In this document: one piece after another, positions 1-46,343 of the stretch
Position numbering within the stretch: position 1 is the first letter of the stretch
How the letters are laid out: the number at the start of each line of letters is the position of its first letter
Source of the DNA: a virus
Virus record (IMG/VR): IMGVR_UViG_3300037961_006053
Location: 3,156 to 49,498 of that record
Length of the DNA: 46,343 nt
Strand: one strand, 5' to 3'
Notes under the pieces: model-generated
What the model was told of the DNA's origin: nothing
Databases searched by the model: none
Seen by the model: the letters and a program-made list of their open reading frames with translations, nothing else
Program-made: the position numbers and the translations under genes

Positions 1-3000
1 GGAACCCCTGTCGGCCATCAAGAACGGCATTCAAATCTCCCCGCCACTTTGAGGCACGAGTCAATTGAGCCGCCCACTCAGCAGCCTTATCCCCACCTTT
101 TTGAAGGACCTCACGAGCAGCCTCACCGGCTTGATCTTTTCCTGCCTTACCCGCCGCAAAGATGACTGCTTGACCAACTGGGTTTGACGCAAACGTTTGC
201 GGAATTATTCGCATTGTTGAAATAAATGCTGGTCGAAATCCTACAATTTGACTCATCTGATTGAAGTGATCGTAAGTGTTCATCCAAAAGTAACGACTTT
301 TTAGAATGAAGTGACCGCGAACCATTCGAGTTTTGAGGTACCGCATTGTCCAGGCGGCAGCAAATTGATTCCCTGTTTGGGTTTCCCGAATACCTTTACC
401 AAGAGCCTCAAGCGCGTCACCGCTTAATCCTTTCAACTCAGGATCAGTTGCTTGCTCTAAGGCCATACTAAGCTTTTTCCTTGCCGCTGCGGGCACAAAA
501 AAGTTTAGCCCCTCAAGATCAGCCGCCTCGAGAAACCTTGGGTTGTAACCTTGAGCCTGGAAAACTTGTCTTACGGCCTCATAATCCTCAGGGTTATCCA
601 ACGCTTCGCCAACAACCCAACGCTTGAAATTGGTTGCAGTTTTTGCGTCCGTTGCAATACCCAAATTAACCCACTCAAGTCTTGCCTTTGATGCTTGACC
701 ATGACCCGCAATCAAAACTGTGACCCGGTTGGCAACAGGATCATCGCCATACTTTTTAACCGGAAACATGGAGTCCAAATCTTTTCGTAGCTTTTTAAAT
801 TTGTCTGCCGAGGTGCCTACAGCATTCACATCAGTGATGTCGAAAATACTTTTGAGCATTCGTAGGTGATCTGGGGTAAGCGCAGATTTGCTGTGCTTCG
901 CTCCTGCCGCACCAAAAATGTCTCGCAGCAAAGTACTACCCGCAGGATCGTACACCAGAGCCTTAAAAGCTTTTACGATGTTTTCTTGCTGAAGCGCTTT
1001 TGAGTATGCAGCTTTGTCGCCAATCGGAGACTCAAACAACCGTTTAAGGTTCGTCATGTGAGTGAAGTTTGGCGATCCCTCTTTTGTCGAGAATAAAGCA
1101 AAATACTCGGCTAAAGAGTCGACAGACGATCCCATCATGTCATGACCTGCACTCAAAGCATTTCGACCCGAGTTAAACTTAATCTGAGGATCACCCGTGA
1201 TGTAGCGGACGAGGCGAGAAGCATCACCTTCTGAGATTAATGTTACCGTGTCACCAATACTCTGCTGCGTCACGCGAACGCCGGACATAATTGCTTCGCG
1301 AACTTTGGGCGGCAAGTCTCGCATATCATCGAGAGCATCGCCACCAAGATACATTGATCGAACAACCCGAGCCAAAGGCCTCGATGTCTTCACATACTGG
1401 TCAATCATTTGCGACGGAGAAAGTTCTCTGATTGCGTTTACCTGACTGTCCAAAGCTATTTTTCGTGTCGCAGGATTCTCAACCAATTGTTTGCGAGCCG
1501 CAAAAGATGCCGCACCTTTACCAATCTCAAGCAACGTATACGATGCTTTAGGCTTTGGTGAAAGTAGACCACCTAAAGAAACCGGACCTGGCAAGTCAAT
1601 TGTAACCTCGATATCAGGGTTCTTGGCTTGCTTTTCTGCCGCTTCAGTCACCAGCTTCTTGAGTTCTTTGACCGAAATGGGACTACCTAAACGTTGAGAC
1701 TCTTGTGCGATACGCAAAAGATATTCGTCGCCCACCTTCTTGGGTAGATCGTCCAACAAGAAACGCTTTAAAGCCTTAAAGACATTAGGAGTTGTCGATC
1801 TTGTTGGTGCTTCAGTCAGCAACAAATCGTCGAATACATCTTCAATTTTAGGCGATGGTGAAAACCTGGCGCCTTCAGCTTGCGCATTTTTTGCCGACGC
1901 AAAACTACTGACAACACGTTTCTTTACGCGCTCAAAAGCAGACGTAGTTTCGGGAGTTGGAGCAGGTCTGCCCTTTGCGTACGCCGCAAAAGACTTCGCA
2001 AAAGCCTCTTCTGCCTTGGCAACCTCTTCAGGGTCGCCTTCAAACACCGCACCTTTATGGGTGACTTTTATTCCTTTCGTCGACAACCACTTTGTCAGAG
2101 AACTCATTTGGTCTGAATCAAGTTCGCGTCGAGCAACCTTACTTATTTCTAAAATAAATTCTTCTACCGTCGGGGCTTCTTCCATGGCACGAACAACGGT
2201 TTGTGTATCAGCCACAAAAGTAGATAACTCACCTGGTTCGACGGGTTTTCTAACTTTACTTGGCCTCAATAGATCATCTGAAACCCGAGCAAGTTCGTCT
2301 TTACCAATTATAAATTGAACGGCCTCGGAACCATCACGACTACGTGAAGTAATCTTTTTAATCGGCAAACCATCGTTAATCAGCCGCGCATAAACCCGTT
2401 GAGCGTCAGGCGATGGATTCACGTCACTCGCAAAATCTAAACCCTCTTTTTTGGCTCTTTGCAAAGCAATTTTATAAAACGATGTTGCAATTCCTTTTTT
2501 CTGCAATTCCGCTGGCAACTCAATTGACTTCACATTCAGCGCACCCTTTTCAATCTTGATGAGCATTCCAGGAATAAAATCAATATCATCGGCTAAATCA
2601 ATAGACTCTCTACCTTCTTGAGCAGCCTTTCGAGTAAAGTTTTCAAGTTCAACAATACTGCGGTCCCGTAAAACCTTTGCTGCAACCATATCCATTTCAG
2701 CTTTATCGCGATCAAACATGCGAACTTTGGTGCCTTCGATATCAATAACTGAAACATCTTTACCCTTATTGAGAGCCGCCTCGACAATACTACTAGGCTG
2801 ATCTAAATAATCTCTACCAGTCGGGGCTTTTGCAGATTTCAAATCTTCGTAGACATCAATTTTACGCTGAAAATCTTTCTGAGCATCCAACATCTTTACT
2901 TTAAGTTCGTCATGCTGTTGACTCAACTGAGGATTCCGACGCCAAAATTCGCTAACCTTAAGTCGATCTCTGTCTAAATCGGCAATACGCTCAATCAAAT

Positions 3001-6000
3001 CAGCTTTTCTTAACTTCGAGTACCCCTTAATTCCGCGATCTTTAGCAATTGCTTTTAGTTGTTTGACTGTCTGAGTTGCAAGATCAGCCAAAACGTCAGA
3101 CATATCTTCACGCTCAAGACGCTCTGAAATGTCTCGTGTAAAGTTTCGAACCTCTCTTGAGGTTAAAAGTTCCTCTCCAAAAGCCATTTTGCTAAACTTC
3201 GGGTCTGTCGCCACATCAACTGCCGTTTCAACTGTAGTTTCAACAGCTTCGCCAGGTTTGACACGGAGATTAGGAATAATTTTATCGAAGCCCCTCGTCT
3301 CGTAGATCATGTCAACATGTTCGCCCGTCTTGCGTTGAATTGCTTTGAGGCGGTCATCGAGGTTCCTGGCAACGTGCATAGCAGCGTCACCACGCATAGC
3401 GGGAAAGGCGTCTTCAAGTTGGTTGCGGAAACTTAAAGCCGTACTCGATATTTTGTCAGTTCCAATTTCTTCGTACTTAGTTGCCGCCGCTTTAATTATC
3501 GGCTTCACAGCAACTTTTTCTTGTGCCGCCAAAGCAGAACGTGTCAGCGCATGCGAAACCCCACGGGCCTCCGCGATGCCAGCAAGCGACTTCGTAACGT
3601 CAACTACCGCCTGTTTAAGGTCTGCGTCACTGACCCCTTTGTCCGATGCAGCTTTAATTTTCACTGCTCTTCTGTGGTTGCTGGGGATAATCAAAGAAAC
3701 TTCGTCTAAAATAGTTTTGCCCGACGGAACTTTTTTCACCGGCAATTGAGCCACAAACTGACCAAGTCTTTCGGTAAACTCTACCGGACTTTTTACCAGC
3801 AGGTCAGCCGCTTCGGCGCTACCCATAAAATCAAACATGCTTTTAATTGCTCGAGTTGTCGAATCTTCTTGAGCCTTTGTACGCACCGGAGAAAACTTTC
3901 TGTTTACGAGAGACCGCTTCAACGCTTTCTCAACACGAGCGATGGCATCCTCTTGAACTGGCCGAAGGTAAGCGCTGGCAACATCTCCTGACTCAACTTT
4001 TTTCGTCATTTCAGAAAGACGATCAATCTTTTTGCTGAGATCAAAAAATTCAGGAAAAGCCACAAGCTGACCTTCAGACTCACCTCGAGCAATAGGTCTC
4101 TCAATTCCAGGGTGGACATAGTCTCGACGAATACCAAAATCAGAAAACGCTAAAGTTTTGTCGAGGTCTTCTTTCCCCTTTCCGGCGATTACAGGTAAAT
4201 CCCGCGCAATCTCGAGAGCGACCCTTCCGTCCGTTCGGTCAACCTGCTTCATCACCTCTGGAAGTTTTTTACGTACACTTTTTTCCGCGCCCTCTGCCGC
4301 TGCTGACCGCAGCTTTGCTTGAGCCAAAAACTTACGGCCAACCTCATAATTACCGGAAGCAAAAGCCTCTTCTGCTTTGATCAAAAATGTCTGAGCCTCA
4401 ACCATCTTGGTCGCAGAATTACCCATACTTTCAAGTGCTGCGGGTACGTGCTTCTTGTTGATTAGAGGCGAAATCTTTTTAATTCCTTGCCGAGATTTAG
4501 ACGCAATCTTCGCAAAACCAAGTGTCGGATCAGGCGCAAGAACGTCAATTAAAAACCCAAGACTACCCAAAGCAAACGCTTTATAACCACTGTCTCGTGC
4601 AGCATCCGTTGAAAGCAGGGTTTTCGTAAAGTCTTGTGCGTTCTTAACCCCCTCAATTGACCCCTCCTGGAGGGCTTCAACAATTGACTCACCCTCAGGA
4701 CCTCGAAGCAATCGATCCAACGCACCAGAACTCGCGCTCAAATGCAAATTAAGCTTGTTAAACACAGAGTCCAAATGATTTTCTGCGCGATAAACCGGCC
4801 GACCGTTTGCGTCTAAACCAACAAGTTGAACTCTATTCTTGCTTGCGGCGTCAAACAGTCTTGTCCAGTACCCATCGTCTTTACCAGCACGATCCTGTTT
4901 CATCGAGTTTTCAGGGTCCATGAATTCGTACGAAACAAAAGCTGGCACACCAATCTTATTGGTTGTCACATACAAAGCTGCGTGGCGTTGATTGCTTTTC
5001 CAAAGATCAGCCGCAATCTTACTTTCCTTCGACCCCTCTCTGCCGGCTCTGGACTTGAACTCATCCACCGAAAGACCCAATCGCTTAGCAATAAGTTCGG
5101 TGTCATAGTCCAAACCAGCTTGCATCATCTTGCGAAAAGCAGAATCTGCCAAGGTTTCTCGGATATTGTCCGCACCATCACCCGAAAACTCGGCTAACGT
5201 TTGAGCCATTACTTGGGCCCTTTCTGGATCAGCGGCTATTTTCGGATCTAAAAGCTTTGCCGCTTCACGCTCATACATTTCACGCTGATACGTTCCTATC
5301 TGAGCGACTTCATTTTGAACATCTCCACCAGCAGCATCCTCATCACTAAGTAATCTGTACCGACTACGAGCACCGTTTTGAAGCAAGTCCAAAACTTCTT
5401 TTCGTTTTTTCAGATCAAGACCGAGAACGTCTGATGTTTTTGGGTCGGCTTTTTTCGCTGCTTCCAAAAGACGGTTTGCTTGACCCAAGTACGCCTGACG
5501 CTCACGAATCTTTTTATCTGTTTGGATCGCAGGCTTCTCAAACTGAAGCATAAATTGTTTCGTTAATTCGTTCGCGTCAGCATTTGGGTCCCGAAAACCA
5601 GCCAAGTTATCTCGACTGTTAATTGCCTCAATAATCTTAGTCATTTGAAACCGTGGGTCCTGAAGCTGCTCAACACTAAATCCAGCGCCTTCTCCAGAAC
5701 CAGAACGATTAAATTGCCAAACACCGTGAGAATCTTCACCGTCAGCTTGATTCTTACCCATTGGATCAAGTCGGCTTTCGGCAATTCCGTTTGCCAGGAT
5801 TGCAGCCATCTGATCCTGACTGAGGCCCGCACTTGTACCCATCTTGTAGACTGTCTGCGCCACGAAGGATTGACGCTTTGTCGGGTCTGATATTTTTCGG
5901 AAATTGACCGGATCGACTTTTGCTGCGTCGGCTAATTCCTCACGACTAAAATCAAACTCTTTTTCGAAGCTAACAACACGTTTCTGGGCCAATTGATTAA

Positions 6001-6442
6001 TTGCCGCGCCTCGATTTGCGACCAAGCGTTTACGGCGAATTTCTCGCATGCCCGTTTTTCTTTCTTCGAGAGGCTTAAAAGCAACTGTTCCTTTATCTTT
6101 CAGTTCTTTAAAAACATCATCAACTTCGCGGCCTTGTCGCCCAATACCGTTAATTAAAACAGCAATATCAACTCCCTGATTTGCTGCTGCACGGGCAAAC
6201 TGATTAGTTGAAATTCCTAAATTTCTACTGTGTTGCTCCATAATCTCGGGCAAAGACAACGCTTCACCTAAAGATTCTCGAGCAACCGTTGGGCTCAAAA
6301 CTGCTTCTCGACGACGAGTAATTGTAGACGCTAAATTGTCTAATTTTAGATCGAAACTATCTTCGTCGATCTCAGCCGACTCTTCATCTTTATCGATCTC
6401 AAATTTTTCTGTTACTTCGTTTTGTTGATTAGTTTCGGCCAC
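1..6442 (-). CDS. Giant internal virion (ejection) protein with lysozyme-like domain, C-terminus outside window
   Basis: This frame is open from a GTG at 6442 to the window edge, giving at least 2147 residues. A TAA lies just upstream in frame, so GTG is the only plausible start. Residues about 205-307 resemble the phage tail lysozyme family (PF18013-like): candidate catalytic Glu222 in IAESRLDP, then HGVWQFN around 239-245 and KQFMLQFEKPA near 295-305. Around 1128-1155 the motif GIKGYSKLRKADLIERI matches a Rho N-terminal/SAP-type nucleic-acid-binding helix pair. Around 1290-1365 the run ELQKKGIATSFYKIALQRA, followed by a conserved-looking SPDAQRVYARL, resembles the acetyl-CoA-binding part of GNAT acetyltransferases. 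The rest is mostly helical and charged. Known giant podovirus proteins of this kind are packaged in the head and ejected to breach the peptidoglycan; a polyvalent protein with several effector modules is also possible. The domain assignments are made by eye. Confidence 0.85.
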   Translation of the reverse strand, partial: MAETNQQNEVTEKFEIDKDEESAEIDEDSFDLKLDNLASTITRRREAVLSPTVARESLGEALSLPEIMEQHSRNLGISTNQFARAAANQGVDIAVLINGIGRQGREVDDVFKELKDKGTVAFKPLEERKTGMREIRRKRLVANRGAAINQLAQKRVVSFEKEFDFSREELADAAKVDPVNFRKISDPTKRQSFVAQTVYKMGTSAGLSQDQMAAILANGIAESRLDPMGKNQADGEDSHGVWQFNRSGSGEGAGFSVEQLQDPRFQMTKIIEAINSRDNLAGFRDPNADANELTKQFMLQFEKPAIQTDKKIRERQAYLGQANRLLEAAKKADPKTSDVLGLDLKKRKEVLDLLQNGARSRYRLLSDEDAAGGDVQNEVAQIGTYQREMYEREAAKLLDPKIAADPERAQVMAQTLAEFSGDGADNIRETLADSAFRKMMQAGLDYDTELIAKRLGLSVDEFKSRAGREGSKESKIAADLWKSNQRHAALYVTTNKIGVPAFVSYEFMDPENSMKQDRAGKDDGYWTRLFDAASKNRVQLVGLDANGRPVYRAENHLDSVFNKLNLHLSASSGALDRLLRGPEGESIVEALQEGSIEGVKNAQDFTKTLLSTDAARDSGYKAFALGSLGFLIDVLAPDPTLGFAKIASKSRQGIKKISPLINKKHVPAALESMGNSATKMVEAQTFLIKAEEAFASGNYEVGRKFLAQAKLRSAAAEGAEKSVRKKLPEVMKQVDRTDGRVALEIARDLPVIAGKGKEDLDKTLAFSDFGIRRDYVHPGIERPIARGESEGQLVAFPEFFDLSKKIDRLSEMTKKVESGDVASAYLRPVQEDAIARVEKALKRSLVNRKFSPVRTKAQEDSTTRAIKSMFDFMGSAEAADLLVKSPVEFTERLGQFVAQLPVKKVPSGKTILDEVSLIIPSNHRRAVKIKAASDKGVSDADLKQAVVDVTKSLAGIAEARGVSHALTRSALAAQEKVAVKPIIKAAATKYEEIGTDKISSTALSFRNQLEDAFPAMRGDAAMHVARNLDDRLKAIQRKTGEHVDMIYETRGFDKIIPNLRVKPGEAVETTVETAVDVATDPKFSKMAFGEELLTSREVRNFTRDISERLEREDMSDVLADLATQTVKQLKAIAKDRGIKGYSKLRKADLIERIADLDRDRLKVSEFWRRNPQLSQQHDELKVKMLDAQKDFQRKIDVYEDLKSAKAPTGRDYLDQPSSIVEAALNKGKDVSVIDIEGTKVRMFDRDKAEMDMVAAKVLRDRSIVELENFTRKAAQEGRESIDLADDIDFIPGMLIKIEKGALNVKSIELPAELQKKGIATSFYKIALQRAKKEGLDFASDVNPSPDAQRVYARLINDGLPIKKITSRSRDGSEAVQFIIGKDELARVSDDLLRPSKVRKPVEPGELSTFVADTQTVVRAMEEAPTVEEFILEISKVARRELDSDQMSSLTKWLSTKGIKVTHKGAVFEGDPEEVAKAEEAFAKSFAAYAKGRPAPTPETTSAFERVKKRVVSSFASAKNAQAEGARFSPSPKIEDVFDDLLLTEAPTRSTTPNVFKALKRFLLDDLPKKVGDEYLLRIAQESQRLGSPISVKELKKLVTEAAEKQAKNPDIEVTIDLPGPVSLGGLLSPKPKASYTLLEIGKGAASFAARKQLVENPATRKIALDSQVNAIRELSPSQMIDQYVKTSRPLARVVRSMYLGGDALDDMRDLPPKVREAIMSGVRVTQQSIGDTVTLISEGDASRLVRYITGDPQIKFNSGRNALSAGHDMMGSSVDSLAEYFALFSTKEGSPNFTHMTNLKRLFESPIGDKAAYSKALQQENIVKAFKALVYDPAGSTLLRDIFGAAGAKHSKSALTPDHLRMLKSIFDITDVNAVGTSADKFKKLRKDLDSMFPVKKYGDDPVANRVTVLIAGHGQASKARLEWVNLGIATDAKTATNFKRWVVGEALDNPEDYEAVRQVFQAQGYNPRFLEAADLEGLNFFVPAAARKKLSMALEQATDPELKGLSGDALEALGKGIRETQTGNQFAAAWTMRYLKTRMVRGHFILKSRYFWMNTYDHFNQMSQIVGFRPAFISTMRIIPQTFASNPVGQAVIFAAGKAGKDQAGEAAREVLQKGGDKAAEWAAQLTRASKWRGDLNAVLDGRQGF

Positions 6443-6466
6443 GGTGACGCCTATACCTTAAATTGT

Positions 6467-7919: not shown

Positions 7920-10900
7920 CTAACCGCTTTGACCAGGAACAATGTTCGAAGAAATACCCGAATCTGCCGCAGGATCATCGCCGCCTACACCCGCAGCCGT
8001 TGTGTTAGTAGAGCCCAGATACTGCTCTACAAGGCTTTTAGCGTCGGGACTAACTTGACCCTTAATCTGTTCTCTTCGAGCCTTTCTGCGTTGACGACGT
8101 TGTTCCCGACGATTCATGCGAGACAATTGTTTTGTCGGCGAAGGCTCACGCAACTCACGCTTAAGCTTCTCTCGAGCCTCATTAATGAGTTTTTTCCGTT
8201 CCTCTGGTGTAGCGCCCTCTAAAGATTTTTCTAGCGCCTCCATATCAAACGTAGACATTAGTGATGTTCCTTGCCCAACAGCAAACCCGCCAGAGCCTGG
8301 TTTTTCCTCGGGCTTTGGAGGCTTAGCCGGCTCATCAACAGAAACTGGAGACTCACCAAAACCTGAGAGATCAGGATCAGATCTACCCGTCACGGGGTCT
8401 GACGTAGGGTACGCTTTTGAATCGGCTATACGACTAAGTACGGGAGGCAAAGCAATGTCTTTGGGATCTTTTGTAAACACATCGAGGTCAACCTGACTCA
8501 AATCCAGACCGTCTTTACCTTGGTTTTTAATCAACTGGTTTGCAACTTCAATACCTTGCTGAACTGTTTTCGGGTCAAGACCTTGCTTAGACATCATCTG
8601 AGAAAACAATTCAGCCTCAGACGGAGCACCTTTTTGAATTTCAGCTTCGGCTTTTTTCGCTTCTGCTTCAGTTGGAGGTTTAGCATCATAGGCATCAGCA
8701 GCAGACTCAATCGTTTCCATTACTGGGTCAACTTCAGCTTCAGCTTCAGGCTGAATTGTTCTTCTTATCGTGCGGTCTGGCCGCTGTGCCTGGACGTCAG
8801 CCGCAGCCATCTCCATCGGATCAACTTCAGATTCTGTAGCCGTTGTGACTTGAGGCAAAGGCCTATCTGTTGATGCGGTTGGGTCTGATGGCTGATCCAA
8901 TGTTTTCGGTGGGTCGCCTGGACGAGCAATCGACTCACCTCTCGGTGATTGCGTAAGATCTGTAAACTTAAACCCACCAATATTACGAGACTCACCGACA
9001 GGTGGCGGTTCATAAGGTCGAAACTCTGAAGTTCCCTTCAGACCAAACTGATCTAAACTCAGTGAATCAATAGTCTGATCACGTAGTTTTAGATCATAAG
9101 AATCCATGTCCCACGGACTCTTTTCTCCAGCCCTGCGATCAGGCGCAACATACCCTGGCTCACCTTCAATCGGAGCCACTGAAAGCACCTCACCTTCAGT
9201 CAACGTAAGAAAATTATCTTGAACATCATCAAAGTTTAGCGGTCGTGATGTGTCCGTATCTAAAATGCCGTCAGCGTTAGGTTTGCCAACGTACGCAGTG
9301 CGCGCAGGGGCAGCACGAACAGCGGCCATCGTCGATAAGACGCTATCGTCTACACCTTCAGGTAACCCACGCTCTTCATTATAAGGTTCGTAAGTACCAT
9401 CAGCTTGCGGAATATAAACTGTTCCGTCGCCGCCCTCGAAGTAAGTTTGACCATCGACAACCTTTGCAACGACGCGATTTTTCCTAACTTCACGATCAAC
9501 TGTTTCGTTCCACTCAGCATCAGTAAGATGGCGCCCATCTTGAGTCGTAATGAACTGCCCTTTAAACTCTGCCGCGTCACCAACATCAATCGCTGAGTCA
9601 GAAACCTTTTCAGTTGCCGCATCAATACGATCACCCATTCCACGACGCAATCGACGCTTTGCTCTTTTTGCAAGCACAGACACCTTTTCTGGGTCACGCT
9701 CGACGATAAAAACTTCATCTGTGTCACCGGGGTTAACCAAAATAGGCTCAACCTCACCAGGAACCATGACACGAAATGATCCAGGTCGATCGGCAGAATG
9801 ATACTTCAACCGCTCACCAACGATGGTCCTACCATCAATAGTAACTCGAACAATGTCGCCAGTACCGATACTCTGGAATCCGTAGCGACCCGCGCCCCTC
9901 TTCTGCTCACGATTAAAGGCTTTGAATGCGGCTAAGTCGTCCCTTCCGGCAACGTAGCTATCAACGTCAACTGTACCGTCTTCAGCAAGATCTGCGCGGC
10001 CCAACTCATCAAAGCCATGGTCAGCAGCCCACTCGCGCCACCAATCATTAGAAATAGCAGTAGCCCTCTCAAGCTTGTCCTGGTCCAATGCAGACCTGGC
10101 GGCAGGAGCATCGGGTCCGCCTGATTCAGACATCGATCGAAGTCGCTTTTGGTCCGCACGAAGCTGTCGATTGTCCTCTTCAATTTGTTTAACGTCTGCC
10201 AACTCTTGATTGATTCGTTCTATGTCAGTTAGGTCTGAACCAATAGCATTCTGAGCGGCTTGAAAGATAATTGGTATCTTGCCCTGAACGTCCTGCATAC
10301 GCTGAATAATTGCGTCAGAGTCGTTATCCGCACTAATTGCCTCGGCGTCAGCGTTAAGCGTGTCAATGTTGGCTTGGAGTCGTGATATTTGTGCGGCCGA
10401 CTTGTCTATCTCTCGGTTGTAACGCGAAATAAAGTTTGTCTTTTGGGGGTCATCTACGTACAACTCGTAATGCTCACCCGTGCCGATAAACGGATTATTC
10501 TCTTGTGCCAGGGGGCCGTCTTCCGAAAGCAACTCGGCTTCGTTTAAAATTTTACCCGTTGCATTATCGATGTCAAACAAGCCGTATCGAGATGAAAACT
10601 CCTGCAGTAGCTGACGTTGAGCCTGCAAAACACTCGGATCACTAAAGTCCACAAACTTTGCATCATCAAACGGGCTTGTGTCAGCAATGGCGGCAAAAAA
10701 CGCTTGCGGGTCAGATACTGCGCCATACCGTTCCGATGCCCGATTTCTCTTTACACGAGTCAAAAACTCTGCGTCGGGCTCAAGAAATCCACCAACTTCT
10801 TTTTGTAGCTTGTCCGTTACACTTCTAATCTGGCGAGTAATCGCGTTTTTCTCGATTCGCTTGTCACCCTGAATCCACGACTCAATGTCTTTACCCAACT

Positions 10901-11117
10901 TTATTCGATCATCGACAATAGACGCGTGGCGCTCCAGCCGATCTCTGCCCGCTTTCCGTATCAGTTTTTCATTTTGACGAATTTCTCCGCCAAACTTAGC
11001 GATCAGACGGTAGCGTGTTGCGATGTCAAGTTCGTCGTCAGCCGTATGTTTATCTCGGCCTTCTTGTGCAGCCTTAGCCGCTGCCATGAATGTTACCGCG
11101 TCGTATGTTCGTGCCAT
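7920..11117 (-). CDS. Large virion-associated protein of unknown function
   Basis: A 1065-residue protein in the leftward late operon. The ATG at 11117 lies three bases after the stop of the upstream gene. Residues 1-350 are mostly charged helices with coiled-coil character (AQISRLQANIDTLNADAEAI). The middle (about 400-700) contains beta-rich segments such as GTGDIVRVTIDGRTIVGERL and DGTVYIPQADGTYEPYNEE. The C-terminal third is Pro/Glu/Ala-rich linker, then a strongly basic helix (NRREQRRQRRKARREQIKG). No enzymatic motif seen. The size and place suggest an internal or ejected virion protein, like the large internal proteins of T7- or N4-type phages, but no homology is visible by eye. Confidence 0.75.
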   Translation of the reverse strand: MARTYDAVTFMAAAKAAQEGRDKHTADDELDIATRYRLIAKFGGEIRQNEKLIRKAGRDRLERHASIVDDRIKLGKDIESWIQGDKRIEKNAITRQIRSVTDKLQKEVGGFLEPDAEFLTRVKRNRASERYGAVSDPQAFFAAIADTSPFDDAKFVDFSDPSVLQAQRQLLQEFSSRYGLFDIDNATGKILNEAELLSEDGPLAQENNPFIGTGEHYELYVDDPQKTNFISRYNREIDKSAAQISRLQANIDTLNADAEAISADNDSDAIIQRMQDVQGKIPIIFQAAQNAIGSDLTDIERINQELADVKQIEEDNRQLRADQKRLRSMSESGGPDAPAARSALDQDKLERATAISNDWWREWAADHGFDELGRADLAEDGTVDVDSYVAGRDDLAAFKAFNREQKRGAGRYGFQSIGTGDIVRVTIDGRTIVGERLKYHSADRPGSFRVMVPGEVEPILVNPGDTDEVFIVERDPEKVSVLAKRAKRRLRRGMGDRIDAATEKVSDSAIDVGDAAEFKGQFITTQDGRHLTDAEWNETVDREVRKNRVVAKVVDGQTYFEGGDGTVYIPQADGTYEPYNEERGLPEGVDDSVLSTMAAVRAAPARTAYVGKPNADGILDTDTSRPLNFDDVQDNFLTLTEGEVLSVAPIEGEPGYVAPDRRAGEKSPWDMDSYDLKLRDQTIDSLSLDQFGLKGTSEFRPYEPPPVGESRNIGGFKFTDLTQSPRGESIARPGDPPKTLDQPSDPTASTDRPLPQVTTATESEVDPMEMAAADVQAQRPDRTIRRTIQPEAEAEVDPVMETIESAADAYDAKPPTEAEAKKAEAEIQKGAPSEAELFSQMMSKQGLDPKTVQQGIEVANQLIKNQGKDGLDLSQVDLDVFTKDPKDIALPPVLSRIADSKAYPTSDPVTGRSDPDLSGFGESPVSVDEPAKPPKPEEKPGSGGFAVGQGTSLMSTFDMEALEKSLEGATPEERKKLINEAREKLKRELREPSPTKQLSRMNRREQRRQRRKARREQIKGQVSPDAKSLVEQYLGSTNTTAAGVGGDDPAADSGISSNIVPGQSG

Positions 11118-36761: not shown

Positions 36762-37174
36762 AGGTGTTTTGAGAAATGTGTCCGGTCGAAGAAAGGGCTT
36801 TCCAATTAAGGTACCATGGGGGTTGCGATTGGGTGTACCCCCCCTCCCCATGCGGCTTTCTTGAATACCATCCGGCGAATCAAACTTAATCCAAGTACGA
36901 CGTTTCGCGTTGGTGGCGAGCCGGCTTCCACAGACAAACCTCTATCCAACTTTTTCCGGCGGGGGGGAAGACGAAATTGGTGGCGTGGTGTCGAAGTCCG
37001 TGCGCTCCAGGTTCGACGTGCCCAGGCCTCGTCCTGATCAAGCCCTTCAGTCATACCATGGGGTCGTGCTGAAGCACTCAGAACCCTGGGAAAAACAAAG
37101 AGTATTTTTTTTAACCGCAGAAAAAATCTTCCTTTCTTTTTCCCATGAACCTGACCCCATGGAAGGACTGGGTC

Positions 37175-37197
37175 GTGATCGGGACGGTCCCGGTCAC
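37175..37197. promoter_or_regulatory. 23-bp near-perfect palindrome
   Basis: GTGA-T-CGGGAC-G-GTCCCG-G-TCAC is symmetric at all positions except one T/G pair. It is centred at 37186, 70 bases before the first early gene. As DNA it could bind a dimeric protein; as RNA it would fold into a strong hairpin. No T-tract follows, so termination is unlikely. Confidence 0.55.
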
Positions 37198-37255
37198 TAA
37201 ACGAACCTTACGCACCCAGCCTTCTAGTGTTGGGTGTGTTGTATGTAAAGGATGG

Positions 37256-37468
37256 ATGACGATGAGTTCAATGAAAGACGCTTACCTTCGACAACTTCGG
37301 CCCATGGACGGCCAGCAAGCTGACCCGCCCGAGCCAAAGGCAGAGACGGCTCCGGCTCACCCGAAGCAGGGTGATCTCTTCGACGTTGCAGACAACCGGG
37401 TGCTGTGTCTCAACCTTCTCTCTTTTACTGAATACGAACTTCGTAGGCGGGCTCAGAAGCTTGGATGA
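37256..37468 (+). CDS. First early-region gene, hypothetical protein
   Basis: About 70 residues. ATG 37256 lies 3 bases after AAAGGA; a second in-frame ATG at 37262 is spaced better. An upstream start at 37145 would include the palindrome and has no ribosome site. The sequence is MTMSSMKDAYLRQLRPMDG, a Pro-rich linker (DPPEPKAETAPAHPKQ), and a hydrophobic/basic end (NRVLCLNLLSFTEYELRRRA). The run NRVLCLNLLSFTEYELRR suggests a helical end. No family recognised. Confidence 0.55.
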   Translation: MTMSSMKDAYLRQLRPMDGQQADPPEPKAETAPAHPKQGDLFDVADNRVLCLNLLSFTEYELRRRAQKLG

Positions 37469-37479
37469 TTCCACTGCAC

Positions 37480-37507
37480 GCTCATCGGGCTTCGCTGTCC
37501 GATGAGC
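37480..37507 (+). terminator. Perfect 9-bp hairpin after the first early gene
   Basis: GCTCATCGG (37480-37488) pairs with CCGATGAGC (37499-37507), loop GCTTCGCTGT. It lies between two genes and has no T-tract, so it is more likely an mRNA-processing or stabilising element than a full terminator. A related hairpin with similar loop (GCTTCGGT) is at 38108-38127. Confidence 0.6.
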
Positions 37508-37550
37508 ATTCTGTGAAATCCTTCACAATATCAACCACTTAGGAGGCCAC

Positions 37551-37820
37551 ATGCTTCGCTACTTCTTCTCTCGTTCTATCCGCATGGTCATTGACTCCGT
37601 CGACGACCTTACCATCGCACCCGGCGTCGAAGCCGAAGAAACCCTGTACGCTTTCCGTGACGCAGTCGTTACTGACCTCGTAAGCTTCGACGAATACCTC
37701 CCTGAAGATTCGGTCTTCCTTGAGGCACCCGAAGCCCGCAGGTTGCACGACGCTAAGCGCAACGTGTACGTCGCAATCATCGAACTTATCGACGCGCAGA
37801 TCTCTGCGATCACCCGCTAA
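37551..37820 (+). CDS. Early small hypothetical protein
   Basis: An 89-residue acidic protein with a strong AGGAGG before ATG 37551. It is helical, with alternating charge (GVEAEETLYAFRDAVVTDLV, EAPEARRLHDAKRNVYVAII). The start and codon use (many C-ending codons) match the neighbouring early genes. No family recognised. Confidence 0.7.
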   Translation: MLRYFFSRSIRMVIDSVDDLTIAPGVEAEETLYAFRDAVVTDLVSFDEYLPEDSVFLEAPEARRLHDAKRNVYVAIIELIDAQISAITR

Positions 37821-37844
37821 ACCCTAACCAACATAGGAGGCCAC

Positions 37845-38093
37845 ATGGTCTACTCCAAACTCGCTACCTTTCTTCTCTCTATCGATCTCTGTACTGACGT
37901 CGACAGCCTGGTTGAGCAATACGAACTCATTCGCAATGAGTACGATCTTGCTGGGTACGAAGCAGACGGGAACATCTTGATCGCCGAGTCCGACTACCAC
38001 GACGCGTACATGAAAACCTTGTGGTCGGTCATGCAGATGTTCGAGATTCGTATCAAGGAACTCGGAGGTCAACTCCCCGGCTACGCAGCTTAA
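37845..38093 (+). CDS. Early small hypothetical protein
   Basis: An 82-residue, probably helical protein starting at ATG 37845 behind ATAGGAGGCCAC, a near copy of the leader of the previous gene. The sequence has VDSLVEQYELIRNEYDLAGY and MKTLWSVMQMFEIRIKELGG. No family recognised. It lies directly before the long GTAACAC array. Confidence 0.7.
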   Translation: MVYSKLATFLLSIDLCTDVDSLVEQYELIRNEYDLAGYEADGNILIAESDYHDAYMKTLWSVMQMFEIRIKELGGQLPGYAA

Positions 38094-38107
38094 TTCCTTT
38101 CCGCGCT

Positions 38108-38127
38108 CATCCGGCTTCGGTCGGATG
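38108..38127 (+). repeat. Hairpin related to the 37480 hairpin
   Basis: CATCCG (38108-38113) pairs with CGGATG (38122-38127), loop GCTTCGGT. The surrounding sequence (CGCTCATC-x-GGCTTCGG and a following GTTGTGA) resembles that of the 37480-37507 hairpin, so the pair looks duplicated. Both sit between early genes. A regulatory or processing role is possible. Confidence 0.5.
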
Positions 38128-38153
38128 GACGTTGTGAGTAATTAAACTCTAAA

Positions 38154-38490
38154 CCGTTACACAGCGTAACACACTGTAACACACTCAGTGTTACGGCAAA
38201 CCGGAGGTTCTATCTACCTTATTCTAAAGTGTAACACTGTAACACACTTTTCCTACTATACCCTTACGTGACGAGACCACGAATGGGTTTAGAGCAACAC
38301 GCTACGCGCTAAACCCATTCTCACATTCTATATGTACGTCCTCTCCACGATATCCGTGTTACAGTGTTACACCTCGCGATTGTCCAGCTTGTTCCTGCAC
38401 TCTCGCGTAACACGCATCCTGTTACACAGTGTTACATCATTCAGCCAACTCAGCGAAAAACCAGGTTGAACCGTCGACACTGCGTAACAC
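38154..38490. repeat. GTAACAC / GTGTTAC repeat array in intergenic gap
   Basis: The gap 38094-38553 has no gene. GTAACAC occurs at 38166, 38176, 38231, 38239, 38407 and 38484, and its complement GTGTTAC at 38188, 38356, 38364 and 38429. GTTACAC occurs at 38156, 38366 and 38421. The core GTGTWACAC is itself symmetric. Spacing is 8 or 10 bases within clusters, near one helical turn. Such dense repeats are typical of iterons, partition or operator arrays. Confidence 0.85.
38229..38372. other. Nested perfect dyad, candidate replication origin or control site
   Basis: Outer arms of 17 bp (38229-38245 and 38356-38372, GTGTAACACTGTAACAC type) and inner arms of 12 bp (38281-38292, GAATGGGTTTAG, and 38309-38320) are both perfect and share one centre at 38300.5. 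The two spacers between outer and inner arms are each exactly 35 bases, and they are not symmetric in sequence. The centre would form a hairpin with a 16-base loop (AGCAACACGCTACGCG). This geometry suggests paired protein binding around a cruciform or an origin. Function is inferred only. Confidence 0.85.
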
Positions 38491-38553
38491 AGCCTACTCC
38501 GTCGAGGCTTTTGACGGAGATCATAGAAACCCCAAACCGACCAGGAGGTCCAC

Positions 38554-38709
38554 ATGAAAGCGCTCATCCTTATCGACTCCGCAGAAAACCCCGGCTTCCT
38601 CGAAGTGTACGCGTCCATCACTTGCACCGACGAAGACGAATTCCTCGACACGCTCGAATACTACGAATCATCGCAGTTCACAATCTGGCTCACCGAGATC
38701 CCAGCCTAA
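38554..38709 (+). CDS. Early mini-protein (51 residues)
   Basis: ATG 38554 follows ACCAGGAGGTCCAC, the same leader as in neighbours. The sequence MKALILIDSAENPGFLEVYA and DEDEFLDTLEYYESSQFTI ends in WLTEIPA. It is acidic, 51 residues, below usual gene-calling limits, but the ribosome site, length and codon choice support it. No family recognised. It directly follows the array, so it is the first gene under any promoter there. Confidence 0.75.
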   Translation: MKALILIDSAENPGFLEVYASITCTDEDEFLDTLEYYESSQFTIWLTEIPA

Positions 38710-38734
38710 ACTCTAACCCGACCAGGAGGTCACC

Positions 38735-39004
38735 ATGGCCGAACACCACCTCAAAGTTCTTTACGTCAACACAGACGGCACCCTTCCCGGCGCCCCAAAC
38801 CTCAAGCAGATTTGGACATGCGGCCCCGGTCACTGGACTGCAGAGGTCGTTGCAATCTACGCAGAGGCTTCAGACCCCAACGCGAAACCGTACCACACCC
38901 ATATCGAAATGACGAGAACCGAAGCCTACGACAACTGGCACCGGATACCTCACACAACTCGAACGAAAATTCGTGAGTGCAAAACAATCTCGTTCAACGA
39001 CTAA
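38735..39004 (+). CDS. Early small hypothetical protein
   Basis: An 89-residue protein starting at ATG 38735 after CGACCAGGAGGTCACC, again the repeated leader. The sequence is HLKVLYVNTDGTLPGAPNLK, then beta and helix (WTAEVVAIYAEASDPNAKPY, ETAYDNWHRIPHTTRTK-like). Aromatic and polar residues are frequent. No family recognised. Confidence 0.7.
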   Translation: MAEHHLKVLYVNTDGTLPGAPNLKQIWTCGPGHWTAEVVAIYAEASDPNAKPYHTHIEMTRTEAYDNWHRIPHTTRTKIRECKTISFND

Positions 39005-39025
39005 CCGACCAAGGAGGTCAATATC

Positions 39026-39136
39026 ATGAAACACTTCTACGTTCCACACAATGTGTTCATCAAACAGTTCAGGCACGCAATTGCCTGGAACCCAATCCGT
39101 ATTCCTTCTTCGTTCATCATCCAACAACTCGCGTAA
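39026..39136 (+). CDS. Early mini-protein (36 residues)
   Basis: ATG 39026 follows CGACCAAGGAGGTCAATATC. The product MKHFYVPHNVFIKQFRHAIA then WNPIRIPSSFIIQQLA is basic and aromatic, with no membrane segment. It is very short, but the conserved leader supports translation. A terminator-like hairpin follows 31 bases downstream. Confidence 0.6.
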   Translation: MKHFYVPHNVFIKQFRHAIAWNPIRIPSSFIIQQLA

Positions 39137-39167
39137 ACGTAGCGTAGATTTAGTTTCCGTTGCGCGT

Positions 39168-39201
39168 AAAACATCTCGGCCCTTTGGTTGAGAGATGTTT
39201 T
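39168..39201 (+). terminator. Hairpin with T-tract, probable terminator
   Basis: AAAACATCTC (39168-39177) pairs with GAGATGTTTT (39192-39201), ten perfect pairs, with the T end supplying the terminal tract. It closes the block of early mini-genes and precedes an AT-rich strip (39222-39245) that could hold a promoter for the next gene. Confidence 0.75.
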
Positions 39202-39295
39202 CCTCTCCACTTCAACAAATTGTGTTGAGTGAATATTAATTGATTCCGCCGGCGGTCGGTCACCGTCATCCCTAAAACAACAACAGGAGTCCAAC

Positions 39296-40009
39296 ATGGA
39301 CAAAATGACAAAGGCGTACATTCGCCGTATCGCAAAGCCACAACTCGTTCCGACCAGTAGCGTAATGCACTACATGGCTCATCACGAGATCATCCACGGC
39401 AGTACGTTCGACAAGAACGGCAAGGAGTGGCCCCAGGTCGTAGCCATCATGCTCGTCAATCCAGACGATCGCCAGATGGTTCACTACCACGTCTACTCCG
39501 AAAGTCGGAAAGACGTCGAGCGCATCATGAAGATGTTGCCAGTCAAGTACCGGTCGTGGATGCGAGACAACCTGCTCAACGACGCGGGGTTTCACAACCC
39601 TGGTCAGTCGCCCGGTTGCAAAGGTCGCAACATCGAGATGCGTTCCACGTACTCATTCGAGAAGCCACCTTGGGTTCGCCCTCCAGTGTTCAACCCGAAC
39701 GCTCACACCTACGTGAAGGTGGGCGGGATTCCCAACTCCAACCGTCTTGGTCCTTACTACAAGATCAAGCCCAAGAAGGAGCCAGAAGATCAGGTCCCAA
39801 TGCCTGGCAACAAGTTGTCCAAGCCTGCAGGCGACGAGTCGATTCTCGATCCTTGGGGCAAACGGCACACAGTCGGTGAGGTCAGCGACATACAGATTGA
39901 CTCAGCACTGGACGTGTTGATGTCATACGCCGAAAAGCAAGGCGCACTCGCTCCAATGCAGGCGTGGGCCGAAGCGATTCGCGAAGGTTACGAACCACCC
40001 ATTCGGTAG
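39296..40009 (+). CDS. Hypothetical protein, 237 residues
   Basis: ATG 39296 is behind AACAGGAGTCCAAC. The sequence has beta-rich and His-rich patterns (HYMAHHEIIHGSTFDKNGKEWPQ, VHYHVYSESRKDVERIMKML) and a Pro-rich middle (KPPWVRPPVFNPNAHTYVKVGGIP), then a helix near the C-terminus (QIDSALDVLMSYAEKQGALAP). No family recognised. It is the largest unknown early gene. The His-containing HHEIIHG is not a clear catalytic motif. Confidence 0.75.
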   Translation: MDKMTKAYIRRIAKPQLVPTSSVMHYMAHHEIIHGSTFDKNGKEWPQVVAIMLVNPDDRQMVHYHVYSESRKDVERIMKMLPVKYRSWMRDNLLNDAGFHNPGQSPGCKGRNIEMRSTYSFEKPPWVRPPVFNPNAHTYVKVGGIPNSNRLGPYYKIKPKKEPEDQVPMPGNKLSKPAGDESILDPWGKRHTVGEVSDIQIDSALDVLMSYAEKQGALAPMQAWAEAIREGYEPPIR

Positions 40010-40379: not shown

Positions 40380-40766
40380 ATGGCTCGCGAATTCAAAGTA
40401 ATCGTTGCTGGCTCTCGAACCGCTCGCTTCGACGCATCCACTTACCAATTGCTGGAGCGCAAACTAAACCTCATCCTCGAGAAGAAATCCATCACTCACG
40501 ACATTGTGATCATCTCTGGTGGCGCCGCAGGTGCCGACTTTTGGGGCGAACTCTACGCCCGCGACTACAACTACAAGGTGAAGCGTTACCCCGCTAACTG
40601 GGACACACACGGCAAACGTGCTGGGTACCTGCGCAACGAGGCCATGGCTGCAAACGCTGACGCACTTGTCGCACTTTGGGATGGCACATCACGCGGCACC
40701 CAACACATGATCAACATCGCTGCCCAACGTGGGCTTCCTACTCGAATCATTCGCTTCGGAGAATAG
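40380..40766 (+). CDS. SLOG-family DUF2493-like protein
   Basis: A 128-residue protein behind TAGGAGACCATC. The Rossmann-like SLOG motifs are plain: VIVAGSR (residues 7-13), DIVIISGGAAGADFWG (41-56), RYPANWDTHGKRAGYLRNEAM (69-89) and ALVALWDGTSRGT (95-107). These match DUF2493/YspA-type SLOG proteins, predicted to bind nucleotides or nucleotide-derived ligands. Phages often carry them in early regions; a role in nucleotide signalling or conflict is plausible but not shown. Confidence 0.88.
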   Translation: MAREFKVIVAGSRTARFDASTYQLLERKLNLILEKKSITHDIVIISGGAAGADFWGELYARDYNYKVKRYPANWDTHGKRAGYLRNEAMAANADALVALWDGTSRGTQHMINIAAQRGLPTRIIRFGE

Positions 40767-41011: not shown

Positions 41012-41425
41012 ATGAATACCGTAATCATCTGTGGCAACCTGGGCAGCGACCCAATCAAGCGGGCAACCGCATCCGGCATGAGCGTGTGCAACCTGAGCGT
41101 TGCAACCAACGAAGGCAAGACCGTCAACGGCGAGTGGCAACCACACACCGAATGGCACAACGTCACAGTCTTCGGCAAGACGGCCGACGCTTGCGCCAAC
41201 AACTTGGCCAAGGGCTCCAAGGTAACCATCCGCGGCAAACTGCGTACACGCAAGTTCACCGACAAGGATGGCAACGACCGCAAGGCAACTGAAATCGTCG
41301 CCGACGAGATCGACTTCGTCGCCCGTCCCACCGCTCAAACCCAGAGCGCCCCTCGCCAATCAGCGCCACCACAGCCGACATACAACGGCGATGGCGCCTA
41401 CGGTGCAGACGATATCCCCTTTTAG
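41012..41425 (+). CDS. ssb: Single-stranded DNA-binding protein
   Basis: A 137-residue protein with a strong AAGGAGG. It shows the OB-fold of bacterial-type SSB: MNTVIICGNLGSDPIKRATA, NLSVATNEGKTVNGEWQPHTEWHNVTVFG, a KGSKVTIRGKLRTRKFTDKDG strand, and TEIVADEID. A Gln/Pro-rich linker and the acidic end GADDIPF are the conserved C-terminal peptide that recruits replication and repair proteins. It would coat single-stranded DNA during phage replication and recombination. Confidence 0.95.
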   Translation: MNTVIICGNLGSDPIKRATASGMSVCNLSVATNEGKTVNGEWQPHTEWHNVTVFGKTADACANNLAKGSKVTIRGKLRTRKFTDKDGNDRKATEIVADEIDFVARPTAQTQSAPRQSAPPQPTYNGDGAYGADDIPF

Positions 41426-44466: not shown

Positions 44467-45389
44467 CTCACGACTCTACACCAATCGCTGCACCACGCCT
44501 CGACACCTCGCTCAATCGAGCCCGTGTTGCACCACTACCACAACTCAAGTCACAGCAAATCTGTACCATCGGTGCCCCCGATGCATACCGTGTCGACTAC
44601 CAAACCCTATGCCAGGTACCAACCCCCGAAACAACTTACCATCCTCGTTCCGGCAATGCTCAGTGGCAACCCGTACCATACGCTTCATTCGTCAATGGCG
44701 CACGCGATGCAATGGCAAACGTACTCAACCAGGACCCAGTGTTCGAGACCTACGCCCTCAACAACTCAGGTTCACAAATGTTTGGGATGATTGGTTTTGG
44801 ATCTGGTATCACCGGCCAAGCTATCACAGTTGCCCTGCGTTCCAGCCTCGACAAAACAATCGCTCCCGCCGCAGCAATCGGCAGCGCACCATTCGTATGC
44901 GCCAACGGTTGTTTCTCAGGTGACTTCATGATCAGTGCCAAACAAACCACCAATGTATTCGGCACACTGGGTCGCATGTTCAACGACATCTGCGACGAGG
45001 CAGTCACACCAGTACTCGAACGCATTCGCATGGTCGAAGGCTGGCGCGACATTCCAGTCAAGAACGACTTGTTTGGTGCATACATGGGTGTCTTGTTCAG
45101 TCGAGGCCTCGTAAAACCACAGGAGTTCACTGCTGCCTTCCGTTACTGGAATGCATGCCACGGTGGCGACTTGCACAACGAACACGGTACCTTCGACTTG
45201 TTCAGTGCATACCAGGCCGTCACTGCCGCCGGCCAACGTACTGCCCCACGCAATGCGTTCCGTCACTTCGCCGGTATCGACCACGCAACCAAAGCCATCG
45301 CAGAAGCTGGTGGTTCTGTAACAGAAGCCTACATTCCTTCATTCGACTTGCAAATCCGTGAGTACGTAGACGTTGGCGAAGCCAAGTAG
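44463..45389 (+). CDS. DUF932-like phage protein
   Basis: A 308-residue protein whose ATG overlaps the previous stop. Signature segments of the DUF932 (phage/plasmid-like) family are visible: QPVPYASFVNGARDAM, FGMIGFGSGITGQAITVALR, SSLDKTIAPAAAIGSAPFVC and ANGCFSGDFMISAKQTT (residues about 68-165), and a later GTFDLFSAYQAVTAAGQRTA. Family members are widespread in phages and plasmids, but the biochemical function is not established. It is the longest early gene here and is followed by a structured gap. Confidence 0.7.
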   Translation: MTHDSTPIAAPRLDTSLNRARVAPLPQLKSQQICTIGAPDAYRVDYQTLCQVPTPETTYHPRSGNAQWQPVPYASFVNGARDAMANVLNQDPVFETYALNNSGSQMFGMIGFGSGITGQAITVALRSSLDKTIAPAAAIGSAPFVCANGCFSGDFMISAKQTTNVFGTLGRMFNDICDEAVTPVLERIRMVEGWRDIPVKNDLFGAYMGVLFSRGLVKPQEFTAAFRYWNACHGGDLHNEHGTFDLFSAYQAVTAAGQRTAPRNAFRHFAGIDHATKAIAEAGGSVTEAYIPSFDLQIREYVDVGEAK

Positions 45390-46186: not shown

Positions 46187-46343
46187 ATGAAAAACACGGA
46201 AGACAACCGATTGAACTTAGCCGAAGCTATATGGGAGACGCTAAGTCTCGACGCAATACATGAACAGTTTATCCTTCAAAATCTTGAACGATACAAAACA
46301 GATCCCGACGCATTTGAGGAAGACTCTGCGATGATGGGACTCG
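46187..46343 (+). CDS. Hypothetical early protein, C-terminus outside window
   Basis: ATG 46187 follows GGAGAGGTGAGTG, a strong ribosome site. The visible 52 residues (MKNTEDNRLNLAEAIWETLS, HEQFILQNLERYKTDPDAFE) are acidic and helical. The frame is open to the window edge. No family recognised. Confidence 0.65.
   Translation, partial: MKNTEDNRLNLAEAIWETLSLDAIHEQFILQNLERYKTDPDAFEEDSAMMGL

Follow-up and report, generated by a model that had tools for sequence, protein, structure and literature searches.

What function is served by the mirror-symmetric array of short repeats that occupies a 460-bp gap (38093 to 38554) between two small rightward ORFs of an uncultured phage, each of them preceded by an AGGAGG-type ribosome-binding site? 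The array was analysed in a window of 46,343 nucleotides, the term being used here for the whole stretch of DNA under study, which belongs to a virus record of 49,498 bases. An earlier note on this DNA had described two perfect inverted repeats, one of 17 bp (38229-38245/38356-38372) and one of 12 bp (38281-38292/38309-38320), with a common centre at 38300.5 and 35-bp flanks between their arms on either side. These coordinates were reproduced exactly, as was the composition of the outer arms, which are pairs of GTAACAC units 8 bp apart. The inner repeat can be extended to 15 bp with one mismatch (38281-38295/38306-38320; 93% identity), and a third concentric pair of 30 nt (38166-38195/38406-38435; 77% identity, centre 38300.5) had been overlooked. 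Together the boxes form a mirror array of about 270 bp, with GTAACAC boxes at approximately ±58, ±66, ±110, ±122 and ±132 bp from the centre (Table 1).

The assertion that such repeats are not expected by chance was borne out. The whole window was resampled 100 times under an order-1 Markov model; no replicate contained a perfect 17-bp inverted repeat spanning at most 400 bp, and none had a concentric pair of repeats of at least 11 bp each (0/100 in both cases). The window contains 17 copies of GTAACAC where 4.5 are expected, and ten of these copies fall within 325 bp (38166-38490). The central spacer is close to neutral in composition (54% A+T vs 52% in the window). A stem-loop, CATCCGgcttcggtCGGATG, at 38107-38128 immediately follows the gene preceding the array; it lacks a clear T run and is possibly a terminator.

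Table 1. Features of the proposed origin region and of related loci. Coordinates refer to the window unless a contig is named.
Feature	Position	Strand	Basis
Whole mirror-symmetric iteron array (proposed origin)	38166..38435		Three concentric inverted repeats; box positions kept in 8 relatives
Left inner iteron pair, GTAACAC at 38231-38237 and 38239-38245	38229..38245	+	Repeat, kept in relatives
Right inner iteron pair, reverse-strand GTAACAC at 38356-38362 and 38364-38370	38356..38372	-	Repeat, kept in relatives
Left outer iteron cluster, 38166-38172 (+), 38176-38182 (+), 38188-38194 (-)	38166..38194		Aligned in 8 relatives
Right outer iteron cluster, 38407-38413 (+), TGTTACA at 38420-38426, 38429-38435 (-)	38407..38435		Mirror of 38166-38194; aligned in 8 relatives
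Central spacer, 110 bp, proposed melting region	38246..38355		Length 109-110 in 8 relatives, sequence drifting
Central stem-loop, 15-bp stem with one mismatch, accessory	38281..38320		Not found in L029
Extra left box GTTACAC, about -142, no mirror partner	38156..38162		Box-position comparison
Extra right box GTAACAC, about +187, no mirror partner, position conserved	38484..38490	+	Box-position comparison
YspA/SLOG-family protein gene, conserved early block	40380..40766		PF10686, E=3.8e-12
SSB-like gene, conserved early block between proposed origin and helicase gene	41012..41425	+	PHROG 44, E=1e-43; synteny
Conserved 335-aa gene, helicase gene expected beyond contig end	44382..45389	+	Synteny
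Looser box cluster, L083	16350..16900		
Looser box cluster, L085	15120..15620		
Looser box cluster, L087	19850..20420		
Looser box cluster, L090	16950..17408		

Relatives were found in IMG/VR by an exact 17-mer search followed by a scan for the opposed tandem pattern. Seven further contigs of the same family carry both arms, 109-110 bp apart. When the eight copies were aligned, the boxes were nearly invariant, and their positions agreed to about 1 bp: boxes at 58, 66, 109/110 and 131/132 bp from the centre are present on both sides in all copies, and the box at 121/122 bp is found on the left in 8/8 and was recognised on the right in 7/8. Unpaired boxes near -142 and +187 also recur in the family. 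As the relatives keep arms and spacing while the sequence of the spacer drifts, the array passed the comparison that the earlier note had itself proposed. A second suggested check, cumulative GC skew, did not help: the skew is negative throughout 37-46 kb without a change of sign at the element and is uninformative because it mostly follows the gene strand. A first search for relatives by way of the SSB gave homologs of 29-49%, none of which led to the element.

In more distant members of the clade the geometry is kept with altered iterons, TGTAAC in L089 and L098 and GTAACC-type in L216 and L217, whose helicases are about 64% identical; the arms of L216 are again 110 nt apart. A first exact 6-mer scan missed these last members for two reasons: the iterons are degenerate and of GTAACC type, and the loci fetched initially stopped short of the site, which was recovered when more sequence was fetched. 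An inverted repeat in L071 of the same helicase group (10859-10989) was discarded, as it lies inside the helicase coding sequence. Clade members with helicases 56-58% identical (L083, L085, L087 and L090) have box clusters of other sequences (GTCGTAAC, TGAAACG), arranged more loosely and mostly as single boxes. Lone copies of the 17-mer were also seen inside clusters of TGTAACA-type repeats in L027, L032, L033, L034, L036, L039, L044 and L049. No DUF927 helicase was found in the records of these eight contigs, and their clusters may serve other replication systems as origins or operators.

The opposed pattern was present in six contigs unrelated to the family as well (L050-L055), and in five of them (L050, L051, L052, L054 and, via L065, L055) a DUF927 helicase gene lies beside it; the remaining contig, L053, is 4 kb long. 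In a search of whole records, DUF927 was found in 9/14 of those carrying the two-armed element and in 0/15 of those where the arm sequence occurs just once. The five two-armed records without it are partial contigs of 49, 40, 34, 11 and 4 kb. All four family records that reach the helicase locus (G001, G003, G004 and G005) encode a protein of 712-713 aa with a DUF927 domain (E about 1e-38 to 1e-41) and a C-terminal HTH_56 domain (E about 1e-8), both above the curated Pfam cut-offs. HTH_56 is the helix-turn-helix of Cch. By sequence, these helicases match SaPIbov1 Rep (8tch, E=1.9e-29) and SCCmec Cch (5dgk, E=2.5e-15). The same two structures are the clear top matches of the predicted structure (mean pLDDT 81), which places the protein in the DUF927 (Cch/SaPIbov1 Rep) family; the helicases of SV40 large T antigen and papillomavirus E1 match weakly in the fold search.

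To keep the repeat out of the selection, an alignment of eight DUF927 helicases served as the only query; it retrieved 80 viral loci, of which 78 had enough sequence to be scored. In 67/78 loci, opposed tandem 6-mer iterons follow the helicase match downstream at a distance of at most about 700 bp, the effective number being smaller than 78 because many of the loci are mutually related and three of the query helicases had been found through the element. The same pattern occurred in 1/536 control windows elsewhere in these loci. An exact hit was absent in 11/78 loci. The iterons are of many different sequences, and the median gap between the opposed sets is 94 bp. This suggests as a general rule that a DUF927 helicase is accompanied by opposed tandem iterons separated by roughly 75-130 bp. 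Among annotated phages, Roseburia phage Jekyll, Faecalibacterium phage FP_Epona, Thermoanaerobacterium phage THSA-485A and Ruminococcus phage phiRg507T2_3 resemble the present array in their opposed tandem iterons, which are separated by about 80-100 bp. They differ from it in that the sites directly follow the DUF927 gene and consist of other iterons (GTAACA, TTTCACC, GGTAACCG); the tables of these four records list no origin feature at these sites.

In the close relatives the element is followed by a YspA-like gene, SSB, small genes, the 335-aa gene and, about 2-4 kb further on and on the opposite strand, the helicase gene, which lies 8-12 kb from the array. No DUF927 helicase gene was found in the record of the window itself, whose contig ends at window position 46343, before the expected locus, with the 335-aa gene ending at 45389. 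On the strength of this synteny, the helicase gene of the window phage is predicted to lie just past the contig end. A family-A DNA polymerase is encoded in 12/13 clade records, the sole exception being the record of the window, as expected if the same end piece is missing. At the other end, positions 1-6457 of the minus strand form a single open frame of 2167 codons that runs past the left edge and probably encodes a giant virion protein.

The inner repeat can form a hairpin, and the earlier note had placed a cruciform at the centre of a site bound symmetrically by an initiator. A recognisable central stem is kept in 7/8 close copies with a few two-sided changes. Upon folding, six of the seven stem-keeping copies were more stable than all of 200 shuffles or all but one, and no significant central fold was obtained for L029 or for the more distant L089. 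Covariation of the hairpin is suggestive only: 79.6% of cells were paired compared with 74.8% after shuffling (7/500), and counts of two-sided changes were not exceptional (65/500). A scan for the exact hairpin sequence yielded no match because the stem sequence changes. Given the lack of a significant fold in L029 and L089, the hairpin is regarded as an accessory of the close group, and any part that it plays in melting or priming is speculative. The proposal of an origin with symmetric initiator binding is well supported by the relatives and by the association with DUF927 helicases, whereas a central cruciform as a general requirement is not.

Which type of origin would this be? Origins of phage-inducible chromosomal islands (PICI) have an AT-rich region between two iteron sets, and a rep-ori segment drives replication of a plasmid (PMC6092414). 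Rep of the staphylococcal pathogenicity islands (SaPI) recognises the iterons of its origin via its C-terminal domain, and Cch, a DUF927 protein, is related to SaPIbov1 Rep (PMC7581432). The array agrees with the SaPIbov1/PICI origin in its two opposed iteron sets around a putative melting region of ~100 bp, and all four close relatives with contigs long enough encode the corresponding DUF927-type initiator helicase with a C-terminal DNA-binding domain (PMC6092414, PMC7581432). Whereas the earlier note did not recognise the site as a described origin, its layout therefore matches one that has been described (PMC6092414). Differences concern (i) the distance of 8-12 kb from the helicase gene, as the PICI origin lies immediately downstream of that gene; (ii) the phage group, which has its own family-A DNA polymerase; (iii) the additional mirrored outer iterons, the near-neutral spacer and, in close relatives, the central hairpin. 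Because the helicase gene is not immediately upstream, the array is called a variant rather than a typical member of the PICI/SaPI type, its added iteron layers and its near-neutral, hairpin-bearing spacer being further marks of the variant. For the SCCmec Cch module the comparison covered the helicase, which is homologous (DUF927 plus HTH_56); for Cch2, which is distinct from Cch, direct-repeat iterons downstream of the operon have been put forward as origin (PMC7581432). SV40 large T antigen and papillomavirus E1 work in a similar way, as initiator helicases on symmetric short origin sites, but belong to other helicase families and bind the origin via an N-terminal domain (PMC7581432), which makes this an analogy and not a membership.

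Judged from sequence comparison, the mirror array is very probably the replication origin of this uncultured phage, and the comparative case for a putative origin of SaPI/PICI type is strong. By homology, the C-terminal HTH_56 domains of the helicase would dock on the inner GTAACAC box pairs on each side. The innermost boxes are 116 bp apart from centre to centre, corresponding to ~11 helical turns; the geometry therefore suggests that both sides present the same face of the DNA. Two ring-shaped helicase hexamers could then assemble face to face across the spacer, which would melt, and each self-loading hexamer would load onto a single strand and move apart from the other. Bidirectional replication would follow, with the family-A DNA polymerase and SSB supplied by the phage itself. 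Cooperativity or control is the probable contribution of the outer boxes, which may also store or titrate initiator; the hairpin may aid melting or priming without being essential. More tentatively, and with some doubt on our part, an apparently non-integrating phage lineage might have uncoupled a PICI-type origin from the helicase gene and evolved an exactly mirrored, multi-layer array in which outer layers and hairpin control or sharpen bidirectional firing. Iterons that track the HTH domain within a fixed geometry would then amount to an initiator/origin code readable across DUF927 replicons.

Other functions were weighed against an origin. Boxes of near-palindromic sequence in a symmetric layout, ~1.1 kb from the point where gene orientation changes between leftward and rightward, could be an operator array at which a phage regulator loops the DNA and controls early and late transcription. 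This is unlikely, since a consensus scan of 37000-39400 detected no sigma-70-like promoter, unrelated elements have the same type of box and the same layout a short way downstream of their DUF927 helicase genes, and the spacing is constant while the gene context varies. An operator is nevertheless the only alternative that retains some weight, and an origin may double as one. It is very unlikely that the nested stems mark a structured RNA or other transcribed element such as a terminator or leader RNA. The predicted fold is strong (z = -8.2), but it corresponds to no Rfam family, L029 and L089 lack a significant central fold, and the boxes are invariant rather than compensating, with spacing and not pairing being kept when the iterons change.

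A partition site, which the earlier note had also considered, would account for the general, centromere-like form of clustered near-palindromic repeats. That claim was weakened by a PF13614 search, which detected no ParA-type ATPase in 13 clade records (seven of at least 70 kb, some partial), and opposed sets with a fixed gap are an atypical geometry for partition sites; we consider partition highly improbable. Least credible is an attachment site with integrase arm sites around a core. Tandem arm-type repeats flanking an inverted-repeat core give the array a superficial likeness to the attP of tyrosine integrases; however, a PF00589 search found no such integrase in the 13 clade records, some of them partial, and the central sequence drifts among relatives.

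An origin of the SaPI/PICI type would provide a candidate origin together with its initiator for an uncultured phage group that has no match in a 50,697-record phage collection, either to the DNA of the array region or to the portal protein. The association of helicase and iterons is extended here to many viral contigs. If the suggested pairing of DUF927 helicases with opposed iterons is general, sequence would be enough to locate the origins of many phages and islands, and the pairs of iterons and HTH domains are a ready test set for origin recognition and opening by self-loading helicases. Finally, another short motif, AGGTT(C/G)NNCC, which comes near to the palindrome AGGTTGAACCT, was observed in the window at approximately 38206, 38388 and 38464, that is, about -94, +88 and +164 from the array centre, the copy at +88 being AGCTTGTTCCT. 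It lies at fixed distances in the putative origins of family members, occurs also in distant clade members, and is perhaps the site of a second protein.
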